From NCBI RefSeq assembly GCF_019795295.1, contig NZ_JAIMCG010000004.1:62001-126000 (forward strand): a DNA stretch of 64,000 nucleotides, in the 5' to 3' direction. The notes beneath the pieces are model-generated. The model was not told the origin of the DNA and made no database searches. It saw nothing but the letters and a program-made list of their open reading frames with translations. This DNA comes from Cupriavidus sp. AU9028. Lineage in GTDB: Bacteria; Pseudomonadota; Gammaproteobacteria; Burkholderiales; Burkholderiaceae. Of this stretch, positions 24,602 to 47,203 are shown in pieces. The position numbers and the translations under genes were made by a program. Each line of letters opens with the position of its first letter. Within the stretch, counting starts at the first letter, position 1.

Positions 24602-24841
24602 GCATCTCTCCTGATTATTCTGTGTAGGCATGCCGGCGCAGCCAGGGTGCGAGCGGCGACAGGCATCTGCTTGCCGCGGCGCGCGAGGTCCGCCGCGGCA
24701 GGGCATCAGCATACACCCGTCCGCTGCCATCGGGCAGCAGCGGGCCGCCGCCTGCCTGCTACTTGCCTCCCGTCTTGCCCCGCAGCGGGGCAGGCAACGC
24801 CGGCTTGAATCTTGCGTCGATGCGGTAAAGTGCGACCGACC

Positions 24842-25513
24842 ATGCCACGCCGCCCCACAGCGCCCACAGCGCCCCCTTCCCCCGCTTTCGAGCACGCCTC
24901 CAGCGCCGCGCCCGCGGCGGCTGGCGGCGGCAGGCCGCTGCGCATCCTGCTGGTGCGCGATCCGCTCGACGCCGATCCGCTCAATGTCGATACCATCCGC
25001 GCCGGGCTGGCGACCGCCGGCTTCACGGACGTGGAGACGGCCGATGCCGGGATGCGGCTGCCGGACGCCATCGCGGCGCGCCAACCGGACCTGATCATCA
25101 TTGCGTCCGAATCGGCCGCGCGCGATACCGTCGAGCACGTCTGCGTCTCGACCCAGCATGCGCCCCGGCCCATCGTGCTGTTCACCGACAACGACGACGC
25201 GGAGCGCATCAAGGCCGCGTTGTCGGCCGGCATCACCGCCTATATCGTCGACGGCCTGCGCGCCGAGCGGGTGAAGACCGTGCTGGACGTGGCCTACGCC
25301 CGCTTCCAGCTCGACCAGGCACTGCGCGCGGAACTGGACGCGACACGGCTCAAGCTCGCCGAACGCAAGGTGGTCGAGCGCGCCAAGGGCCTGCTGATGA
25401 AGGAGCGCGGCTTCAGCGAGGACGACGCCTACAAGCGCCTGCGCAGCATGGCGATGGAGCGCGGCATCAAGCTGGTGGAAGCGGCGCAGCGCGTCATCGA
25501 CGTGATGGCCTGA
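24842..25513 (+). CDS. nasT: NasT-like ANTAR-domain antitermination regulator
   Basis: This RNA-binding regulator of nitrate assimilation has 223 residues. A disordered N-terminus is followed by a receiver-like domain (RILLVRDPLDAD, about 40-155) and a C-terminal ANTAR domain (KVVERAKGLLMKERGFSEDDAYKRLR, about 170-220). At the usual phosphorylated aspartate the protein reads PDLIIIASES, so the acceptor appears replaced by Ala and phosphorylation is unlikely. NasT proteins are instead held inactive by the nitrate sensor NasS. The next gene's leader contains the kind of twin hexaloop RNA that ANTAR domains bind. Confidence 0.85.
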   Translation: MPRRPTAPTAPPSPAFEHASSAAPAAAGGGRPLRILLVRDPLDADPLNVDTIRAGLATAGFTDVETADAGMRLPDAIAARQPDLIIIASESAARDTVEHVCVSTQHAPRPIVLFTDNDDAERIKAALSAGITAYIVDGLRAERVKTVLDVAYARFQLDQALRAELDATRLKLAERKVVERAKGLLMKERGFSEDDAYKRLRSMAMERGIKLVEAAQRVIDVMA

Positions 25514-25639
25514 GGGTCGGGGGCGGCCACCGATCAACCGCCCCGTCCCGATGCACGCACCCGGTGCAGTGCACCAGGCCGAGGCGCGCAGTCGAGCCGC
25601 TCGCACAACACCTGTTCATTTCCCGTCTTTCGCTTCGCG

Positions 25640-25654
25640 TGGCATACCGATTGC
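25640..25654 (+). promoter_or_regulatory. Sigma-54 promoter of the nrtA-like gene
   Basis: TGGCATACCGATTGC matches the -24/-12 consensus TGGCACG-N4-TTGC with exact spacing; only the two bases CG to TA differ. Transcription would begin near 25665, just before the first leader hairpin. Confidence 0.7.
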
Positions 25655-25667
25655 GTAGCAATGGCGA

Positions 25668-25746
25668 CCGGCCAACGCTGGCCGGCAACGATGACGATGC
25701 GCCCGATCAACGGCGATCCGCGCGATCCGGGACAACGGCGTCCCGG
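25668..25746 (+). promoter_or_regulatory. Twin-hexaloop ANTAR antitermination RNA in the nrtA leader
   Basis: Hairpin 1 is CCGGCC-AACGCT-GGCCGG (25668-25685). Hairpin 2 is CCGGGAC-AACGGC-GTCCCGG (25727-25746). Both loops have six bases with A at position 1 and G at position 4, the known recognition pattern of ANTAR proteins. The 3' arm of hairpin 2 shares bases 25743-25746 with the terminator, so the two structures exclude each other. Confidence 0.8.
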
Positions 25747-25788
25747 TCCTGTCGCCTCTCCTTGGGGCGACGGGCCGGGGCGCTTTTT
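25743..25788 (+). terminator. Leader terminator (attenuator) before the nrtA-like gene
   Basis: An extended stem pairs CCGG-CC-GTCGCC (25743-25756) with GGCGAC-GG-CCGG (25766-25778), followed by five T at 25784-25788. It lies 18 bp before the ATG. Read-through would require hairpin 2 to form instead. Confidence 0.75.
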
Positions 25789-25805
25789 CCTTTCTGGAGC
25801 CTTGC

Positions 25806-27125
25806 ATGCCCTCTCGCCTGAAGACTGCCAAGCCGGTGCGGCCGGCGGTCGAATCTTCCGCCGCCACTGACGGCGCCGACCTCGCCCCGGCCAGCCAGCG
25901 CCGCCGCCGGGCATCGACCGGCATCGCTGGCGCCAGCGTGATGACGCTGGTCGATCCGATGGTGCGCGCCGGGGCGTGGGCCGCGGGATCCGATGCGCCG
26001 GAAAAGCGCGAGGTGAGGATCGGCTTCATCCCGCTGACCGACTGCGCCTCGGTGGTGATGGCTTCCACGCTGGGCCTGGACCGCAAGTACGGCATCCGCA
26101 TTACGCCGACAAAGGAAGCCTCGTGGGCGGGCGTGCGCGACAAGCTGGTCAATGGCGAGCTCGACGCCGCGCACGTGCTGTACGGGCTCGTCTATGGCGT
26201 GCAGCTGGGCATCGGTGGCTCCAAGAAAGACATGGCGGTGCTGATGAGCCTGAACCACAACGGCCAGGCGATCTCGCTATCGTCCAGGCTTGCCGAGAAG
26301 GGCGTGCGCGACGGCCCCGGCCTGCGCGCGCTGATGGCCCGGGAAAAGCGCGAATACACCTTCGCCCAGACCTTCCCGACGGGCACGCATGCGATGTGGC
26401 TCTACTACTGGCTGGCCGCCCACGGCATCCACCCGATGCAGGAAGCGCGCGCCATCACCGTGCCGCCGCCGCAGATGGTGGCCAACATGCGGGTGGGCAA
26501 CATGGATGGCTTCTGCGCGGGCGAGCCCTGGAACGCGCGGGCCATCGCCGATCGCATCGGCTTTACCGCGGAGACCACGCAGTCGATCTGGAAGGACCAT
26601 CCGGAGAAGTCGCTGGGCACCACCGCCGAATTCGTACGGACGCACCCCAACACCGCGCGCGCAATGGTCGCCGCCATACTGGAAGCGTCGAAGTTCATCG
26701 ACGGCTCGGTGTCGAACCGGCGCAAGACCGCGGAAACCATCGCCGCCGAGTCGTACGTCAACACGGACATGGACATCATCCTGGACCGCATGCTGGGCCG
26801 CTACACCAATGGTCTGGGCAAGACCTGGGATGATCCCAGCGCGATGACGTTCTATCAGGACGGCAACGCCAACTACCCCTTCCTGTCGGACGGCATGTGG
26901 TTCCTGACCCAGCACAAGCGCTGGGGACTGCTGAAGGAACATCCGGACTATCTGGCGGTGGCCAGGAAGGTCAATCAAGTCGACATCTACCGGCAGGCGG
27001 CCACCGCCGCGCAGGTTCCGCTGCCCGCCAGCGACTTCCGTTCGGCGACGCTGATCGATGGCGTGGTCTGGGACGCCACCCGCGATCCCAAGGCGTATGC
27101 CGATGGCTTCCGCATCAAGGCCTGA
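25806..27125 (+). CDS. nrtA: NrtA/CmpA-family nitrate-binding protein (possibly a NasS-like sensor)
   Basis: This 439-residue protein belongs to the nitrate/bicarbonate ABC substrate-binding family: EVRIGFIPLTDCASVVMAS, GIRITPTKEASWAGVRDKL, NMDGFCAGEPWNARA. The N-terminus contains QRRRRASTG and a moderately hydrophobic run to about residue 60, which could be a weak twin-arginine signal. No permease or ATPase gene follows; the next gene is ybiB after 140 bp. It could be a transporter component whose partners are elsewhere, or a cytoplasmic NasS-type sensor acting on NasT. Its leader is an attenuator under a sigma-54 promoter. Confidence 0.8.
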   Translation: MPSRLKTAKPVRPAVESSAATDGADLAPASQRRRRASTGIAGASVMTLVDPMVRAGAWAAGSDAPEKREVRIGFIPLTDCASVVMASTLGLDRKYGIRITPTKEASWAGVRDKLVNGELDAAHVLYGLVYGVQLGIGGSKKDMAVLMSLNHNGQAISLSSRLAEKGVRDGPGLRALMAREKREYTFAQTFPTGTHAMWLYYWLAAHGIHPMQEARAITVPPPQMVANMRVGNMDGFCAGEPWNARAIADRIGFTAETTQSIWKDHPEKSLGTTAEFVRTHPNTARAMVAAILEASKFIDGSVSNRRKTAETIAAESYVNTDMDIILDRMLGRYTNGLGKTWDDPSAMTFYQDGNANYPFLSDGMWFLTQHKRWGLLKEHPDYLAVARKVNQVDIYRQAATAAQVPLPASDFRSATLIDGVVWDATRDPKAYADGFRIKA

Positions 27126-46394: not shown

Positions 46395-47144
46395 ATGCAC
46401 AAGCTCGTCCTGATTCGCCACGGCGAATCCACCTGGAATCTCGAAAACCGCTTTACCGGCTGGGTCGACGTCGACCTGACCGAAACCGGCGCCGAGCAGG
46501 CCCGGCACGCCGGCAAGCTGCTGAAGGAAGCCGGCTACAGCTTCGACATCGCCTATACGTCCGTGCTCAAGCGCGCCATCCGCACCCTGTGGCATGTGCA
46601 GGACGAAATGGACCAGATGTGGATTCCCGTACGCACGGAGTGGCGCCTCAACGAACGCCACTATGGCGCGCTGGCCGGGCTGAACAAGGCCGAGACCGCA
46701 GCCAAGTTCGGTGACGAGCAGGTGCTGGTCTGGCGCCGCAGCTACGACACGCCGCCGCCCGCGCTTGAGCCGACCGATCCGCGCGCTTCGTTCGAGGACC
46801 CGCGCTACGCCAACGTGCCGCGCGAGCAGATCCCGCTGACCGAGTGCCTGAAGGACACGGTCGCCCGGGTGCTGCCGCTCTGGAACGAATCGATCGCACC
46901 CGACATCAAAGCCGGGAAGCGCGTGGTGATCGCAGCCCACGGCAACAGCATCCGCGCGCTGGTGAAGTACCTCGACCAGATCTCCGATGACGATATCGTC
47001 GGCCTCAACATTCCGAACGGCACCCCGCTCGTCTACGAGCTGGACGCCGATCTGCGGCCGATCCGCCATTACTATCTGGGCGACCAGGAAGCCATCGCGG
47101 CGTCGCTGGCGGCCGTCGCCAGCCAGGGCAAGGCGGCCCGCTGA
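46395..47144 (+). CDS. gpmA: 2,3-bisphosphoglycerate-dependent phosphoglycerate mutase
   Basis: GpmA interconverts 3- and 2-phosphoglycerate. The 249 residues begin with the phosphohistidine motif LIRHGES (R8-H9-G10-E11). The second catalytic histidine is in [17 protein letters not shown]. The ATG at 46395 puts this motif at the normal position; an in-frame ATG at 46353 would add 14 residues. A strong terminator follows the gene. Confidence 0.97.
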
Positions 47145-47150
47145 AGCGGC

Positions 47151-47203
47151 AAGGCCGCCGGTGCGCCAGCGATGGCGCCGCGCAGCCGCGCGGCCTTTTT
47201 TTT
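47151..47203 (+). terminator. Intrinsic terminator after gpmA
   Basis: The outer stem AAGGCCGC (47151-47158) pairs with GCGGCCTT (47190-47197), encloses a smaller GC-rich hairpin, and is followed by a T-run through 47203. Confidence 0.85.

Follow-up and report, generated by a model that had tools for sequence, protein, structure and literature searches.

A leader with three A1/G4 hexaloops upstream of an nrtA/nasS-like gene of Cupriavidus: a probable NasT-dependent antiterminator

The leader of the nrtA/nasS-like gene of Cupriavidus sp. AU9028 is probably an antiterminator of transcription that depends on NasT and is controlled by NtrC and sigma-54; in it two hairpins, A and B, would recruit NasT and a third, C, would act as the switch. 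This reading comes from the comparison of sequences. The leader lies in a stretch of 64,000 nucleotides, here called the window, in which an earlier note had described a sigma-54 promoter, two hexaloop hairpins and an overlapping terminator in front of the gene.

Three hairpins on the forward strand of the window leader carry the loop expected of ANTAR RNAs, a hexanucleotide with A at position 1 and G at position 4. Hairpin A (CCGGCC-AACGCT-GGCCGG, 25668-25685) has the loop AACGCT at 25674-25679, the first four bases of which are conserved in the genus on a stem that covaries. A1 and T6 of this loop could pair, and the resulting tetraloop is predicted to be slightly more stable than the hexaloop (-12.7 versus -11.8 kcal/mol). 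Hairpin C, the putative antiterminator (CCGGGAC-AACGGC-GTCCCGG, 25727-25746), has the loop AACGGC at 25734-25739; its AACG is kept in the genus, and the stem covaries across families. Between the two lies hairpin B, a third A1/G4 hexaloop that had been overlooked (inner stem GATC-AACGGC-GATC at 25705-25718, extended to 25699-25723; loop AACGGC at 25709-25714). Its stem, which covaries, consists of two 4-bp parts flanking a small internal loop. The linkers measure 19 nt (A-B), 8 nt (B-C) and 41 nt (A-C). The linker range in use for ANTAR RNAs is 2-25 nt (PMC8164766), and A-B and B-C fall within it whereas A-C falls outside. Linkers in eut leaders span 5-12 nt (PMC3369931), and 20 extra linker nucleotides abolish activity (PMC8934654). 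These published limits argue against A and C acting as a free pair, and the twin arrangement of the earlier note, whose members were A and C, gives way to one of three hexaloops.

We estimated how often such loops arise by chance using 20,000 dinucleotide shuffles of 25655-25746, counting hexaloops on Watson-Crick stems of at least 4 bp. None of the shuffles contained three or more A1/G4 hexaloops, 26 contained two and 996 contained one. Hairpin B alone was matched in 4.2% of shuffled linkers; at that rate it needs comparative support. Three A1/G4 hexaloop candidates cluster at only one further place in the window, 47130-47168, where a gene ending at 47144 has its stop codon and terminator region. 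We rejected this cluster as probably due to chance.

The last hairpin is mutually exclusive with an intrinsic terminator, as in ANTAR RNAs. The terminator (forward strand, 25737-25788) pairs 25737-25758 with 25764-25784 and ends in five T at 25784-25788. Its 5' arm covers bases 4-6 of loop C and the entire 3' arm of C, a 10-nt overlap at 25737-25746. The predicted energies are -44.4 kcal/mol for the terminator alone and -13.0 kcal/mol for hairpin C. Upon predicted stepwise folding, C persisted until 25775 and the terminator stood in its place at 25785. Such a predicted order fits a terminator that forms by default and that a bound protein could block. An equivalent terminator overlapping C, counted when its stem begins in or just after loop C and ends at a T-run, was present in 52 of 53 leaders of the genus and in 56 of 59 leaders outside it.

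The putative sigma-54 promoter on the forward strand reads TGGCAT-N5-TTGC (25640-25654), in agreement with TGGCA-N6-TTGC, and its start site is predicted near 25666. The distance from its first base to loop A was 32-36 nt in all 53 genus leaders. Upstream of it, an NtrC-like palindrome (TGCACG-N5-GGTGCA, 25552-25568, unstranded) was read in the sequence; it has a single mismatch to what we take to be the NtrC consensus. A weaker, half-conserved site with three mismatches (25570-25586, also unstranded) follows 18 bp downstream. A tandem pair with this 18-bp step was found in 38 of the 53 genus leaders, the window included. Fifty rounds of mononucleotide shuffling, which do not correct for the kinship of the leaders, gave 0.02 on average and never more than 1. 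The tandem sites were absent from the earlier note. As regards relatives, an rpoN1 mutant of Ralstonia solanacearum did not grow on nitrate, and the nitrate assimilation operon of that species is preceded by a sigma-54 motif (PMC4371752). Deletion of ntrC in Acidovorax citrulli lowered nasS and raised nasT (PMC10052978), which would follow from a promoter of this type between the two genes.

Most of the anatomy proposed in the earlier note was thus borne out: the coordinates of the promoter, hairpins A and C and the five-T terminator agree with the sequence. Its placement of all elements within 150 bp of the ATG was nearly correct, the promoter starting 166 nt before that codon. The overlap of hairpin C with the terminator is real and larger than the four bases, 25743-25746, first noted.

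We searched 60 genomes of the genus for the leader. Four lacked a usable nrtA (G004, G012, G048 and G057), leaving 56 leaders including that of the window, of which 53 had promoter and hairpins in the scan; all 53 were distinct. The other three (L141, L143 and L145) lacked the motif in the scan. L141 and L145 have lost the nrtA leader by deletion and in L143 it has decayed, which leaves nrtA close behind nasT; all three genomes still carry a leader of the narK type described below (L161, L174 and L155). Loops A and C both began with AACG in 53 of 53 leaders, which confirms the A1/G4 pattern that the earlier note had read in them. Loop B had A1 and G4 in 50 of 53 (exceptions L093, L136 and L144), and positions 5 and 6 were variable in A and B. 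The distance between loops B and C was nearly fixed (23-27, mean 25.7, s.d. 1.0), compared with 33-77 (mean 42.0, s.d. 11.9) for A-B and 59-100 for A-C.

The stems were analysed for covariation against shuffled and slid controls, with the caveat that kinship among sequences can beat such shuffles even when there is no structure. In the genus alignment of B and C, four of the six B pairs changed on both sides. B and C together gave 20 two-sided cells, compared with 5.0 in shuffles (0 of 500 as high); the number of two-sided pairs (145 of 500) and the pair types (345 of 500) did not exceed the shuffles. One slid control reached 18 two-sided cells, with 35.7% of cells paired as against 91.5% in the real alignment. 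Hairpin A gave 18 two-sided cells versus 9.7 in shuffles (0 of 500 as high), slid controls reaching up to 14. When 51 three-hairpin leaders, from the genus and from other families, were aligned together, the count was 61 cells versus 15.6 (0 of 500 as high; best slid control 21) and the covariation score 0.251 versus 0.105 (0 of 500). Stem C is invariant in the genus and therefore yields no signal there. Across families it gave 15 two-sided cells versus 8.4 (2 of 500 as high), the other two measures (135 of 500 and 47 of 500) not exceeding the shuffles. Covariation of stems A and C, which the earlier note had offered as a check, was thus obtained for A within the genus and for C only across families. 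G-U pairs occur in the leader stems.

For leaders outside the genus we took relatives, at least 595 in number, and kept the best 80, namely 4 from Cupriavidus and 76 nrtA loci from elsewhere. Twelve of the 76 had no promoter match in the scan (L013, L016, L021, L024, L027, L029, L030, L034, L037, L050, L058 and L059) and five more had no hairpin C (L008, L042, L055, L066 and L069). With hexaloops required to have a closing C-G pair and a stem of at least 3 bp, the remaining 59 leaders comprised 14 with three A1/G4 hexaloops, 39 with two and 6 with C only. Several Comamonadaceae keep the stem of the 5'-most hairpin with a loop, such as GGCAAC, GGCGAC or GACAAC, the ends of which are able to pair. 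As judged by eye, the nrtA leaders of Azonexus, Dechloromonas and Achromobacter have a middle hairpin without an ANTAR loop.

From 38 of the 53 genus leaders, those with short A-C spacing, and 13 of the 14 other three-hexaloop leaders, we built a covariance model of 51 rows (R1), which because of this choice leans towards the three-hairpin, short-spacing form; L093, with its degenerate B, was included. With the window's own genome counted, R1 had matches in 43 of the 300 genomes searched from the order, spread over 27 of 134 genera. Among 30 returned loci, some of which may belong to species used in building the model, a script found at least three A1/G4 hexaloops in 19. One of these (L206) was seen by eye to be an overlap artefact, leaving 18 including the window (17 of the 29 others; eight other families). 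A match to nrtA was present at 27 of the 30 loci.

In the window's own genome, R1 found two leaders, that of nrtA and one on the reverse strand of contig C6 (L122, about 12457-12285). The latter precedes a narK-like gene and nirB. The best NCBIfam match of the former gene is the NarK family, at 303.5 bits just below the cut-off of 311.7, and the nirB match exceeds its cut-off. In the C6 leader a sigma-54 promoter is followed by a first A1/G4 hexaloop, then by a strong middle hairpin that has no ANTAR loop, and last by hairpin C, the second A1/G4 hexaloop, with its terminator. Across the genus, we drew 23 such leaders from the 30 loci with the best matches to the Rfam narK RNA (RF03032), the other 7 being nrtA leaders. 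A narK-like gene lay downstream in all 23, and a middle A1/G4 hexaloop was found in 0 of 23, compared with 50 of 53 nrtA leaders by the same criterion.

At the Rfam gathering threshold the window leader had no match, and no match to RF03032 in the 60 genus genomes reached the threshold. The window leader scored 20.3 bits and the narK leader of the same genome 30.3, both below the threshold of 43.2. We considered filing the window leader as RF03032 and dropped this, because the 20.3-bit match was obtained at a loose threshold with the promoter part misaligned. Of 14 control genomes, 6 also gave RF03032 matches when E was allowed up to 1 and one did so when it was limited to 0.5; weak matches therefore prove little alone. 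One of 11 loci searched, an nrtA leader of Achromobacter (L012, 5804-5867), passed with 44.8 against 43.2 bits. In our reading, the RF03032 consensus combines a sigma-54 promoter with two A1/G4 hexaloops downstream of it, AACGGC and AAAGAC; it seems to be an RNA model with promoter DNA sequence inside. By this comparison, the Rfam narK RNA and the window leader appear to be the same class of leader, alike in promoter and hexaloops and linked by the Achromobacter leader. They differ in that Rfam marks one hairpin as paired, and in the subthreshold scores of the window and narK leaders.

The genes on either side fit a NasT system. Immediately upstream, as the earlier note had said, an ORF on the forward strand (24812-25513, start codon uncertain) encodes a NasT-like protein with an ANTAR domain (PF03861, 68.7 bits; cut-off 27.3) and a receiver-like domain (Response_reg, 24 bits, below the cut-off of 30.2). 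It is the only ANTAR match in this 94.6%-complete genome, and nasT adjoins the leader at all 29 loci from L093 to L121. The ANTAR domain aligns with those of EutV (6wsh, 6ww6), NasR (4akk) and a putative antiterminator (1s8n). The RNA-contact residues named for EutV (PMC8934654) are kept, with Lys147 replaced by Arg as counted along the alignment. At all 28 covered loci among L093-L121, Ala stands where the receiver would have its phospho-acceptor Asp; other genera have Asp, Ala, Glu, Gln or Lys there. With Ala at this position, phosphorylation is not likely to be the signal for NasT, in keeping with the NasS-NasT model, where nitrate takes the complex apart (PMC3795266).

Downstream, the ATG at 25806 opens a gene for an nrtA/nasS-like nitrate-binding protein (25806-27125, forward strand; PF13379, 341.6 bits), so that a receiver-like ANTAR protein is encoded beside an NrtA-like one, as in NasS-NasT systems. 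Its closest named relative, among the best 80 of at least 595, is a protein of C. gilardii, with 87% identity. A ybiB-like gene (NF006005, 418.2 bits) comes next. A search of the 94.6%-complete genome for the nitrate permease TIGR01183 gave nothing over the cut-off and six matches below it. The nrtA-like gene thus looks orphaned, and its product may act as the sensor of NasT (that is, as NasS) and not in transport. NasS has no signal peptide (PMC3795266, PMC5424462). As judged by eye, most relatives of the NrtA-like protein carry a twin-arginine motif, and the protein encoded here has RRRR but a weak signal-like stretch.

We propose the following mechanism. Under nitrogen limitation, NtrC bound at the upstream palindromes would activate sigma-54 polymerase, which would start near 25666. 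When free NasT is lacking, the terminator would capture the loop and 3' arm of C, and transcription would stop near 25788. With nitrate present, NasT would be freed from its nitrate-sensing partner, bind the A1/G4 hexaloops and stabilise C, thereby blocking the terminator. A and B would serve as recruitment hairpins in series and C as the switch hairpin, with B and C kept at a fixed distance as one unit and A as a docking site whose position is less constrained. The core of the antitermination switch inferred in the earlier note, nitrate control added to sigma-54 control, finds good support in the comparison, given the recurrence of promoter, loops, mutual exclusivity and nasT and the covariation of A and B; its twin layout does not.

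Not all observations favour this proposal: the 4.2% chance rate of hairpin B, its lack of A1/G4 in 3 of 53 leaders, the tetraloop option of loop A and the deletion or decay of 3 of 56 leaders count against it. Judged by linker length, B-C would be the sole real pair. We set this view aside, because no ANTAR loop lies between A and C in the narK leaders, and therefore keep A as well as B as a candidate. These same 23 narK leaders, each with A, a strong non-ANTAR middle hairpin and C, are what would be expected if only A and C acted and the middle hairpin were a structured spacer joining them, its A1/G4 loop being secondary. The nrtA leaders of Azonexus, Dechloromonas and Achromobacter are alike in this respect, and L093, L136 and L144 keep A and C and not the full B loop. 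We consider a spacer role unlikely, however, because the nrtA leaders hold A1/G4 in loop B in 50 of 53 cases while changes in its stem compensate, and because it is the B-C and not the A-C spacing that is almost fixed.

The converse, in which B and C alone form the usual dual motif and A is a relic or a hairpin protecting the 5' end, would agree with the 8-nt B-C linker, which lies inside the published limits. Eight of the 59 other leaders (L020, L022, L049, L057, L063, L072, L078 and L081) have B and C intact and an A stem without A1/G4, and several of their A-position loops can close into tetraloops. In Cupriavidus, however, loop A is more constant than loop B and the narK leaders rely on A, which makes this reading quite improbable. 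It is least probable, and in our view very much so, that NasT plays no part and that we are dealing with a constitutive terminator and G+C-rich palindromes, or with DNA operator sites. The stems are indeed G+C-rich palindromes and the terminator is strong by itself, but the conservation of loop positions 1 and 4 where 5 and 6 vary, the G-U pairs, the tie between C and the terminator and the conserved nasT neighbour speak against it. All the variants are most simply explained if A and B are interchangeable recruiters for C, both of which are kept in the Cupriavidus nrtA leaders.

The type of switch is already known. ANTAR dual-hexaloop RNAs (the targets of EutV, NasR and AmiR; PMC3369931, PMC8934654) share with the window leader the A1/G4 hexaloops, the C-G closing pair, a last hairpin exclusive with a terminator and an ANTAR gene nearby. 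They have two hexaloops where the window leader has three, and the phospho-acceptor Asp of EutV is replaced by Ala in the window NasT. The NasS-NasT systems of Paracoccus, Azotobacter and Pseudomonas (PMC3795266, PMC5424462) share the receiver-like ANTAR protein, the NrtA-like partner gene, leader hairpins and NtrC-linked nitrogen control. Unlike their control of nas genes, the window-type leader would act on both narK and the NrtA/NasS-like gene itself. The novelty would lie in a single switch hairpin served by two candidate recruitment hairpins. We found no mention of a three-hexaloop form in the extracts of the ANTAR and NasT literature searched.

We put forward, tentatively and as a possibility that we would not bet on, a three-hexaloop ANTAR class in which two recruiters serve one switch. 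The sensor gene would then respond to NasT dose differently from the two-hexaloop narK leader and, if the orphan NrtA-like protein is the NasT sensor, NasT would drive its own antagonist. The three-hexaloop, two-hexaloop and decayed leaders offer natural variants on which the hand-off model can be tested, and two of the variant leaders share one genome with one ANTAR gene. The NasT/ANTAR reading also suggests a mechanism for the Rfam narK RNA motif. If the NrtA-like protein is the nitrate sensor of NasT, the leader would build negative feedback into nitrate induction.
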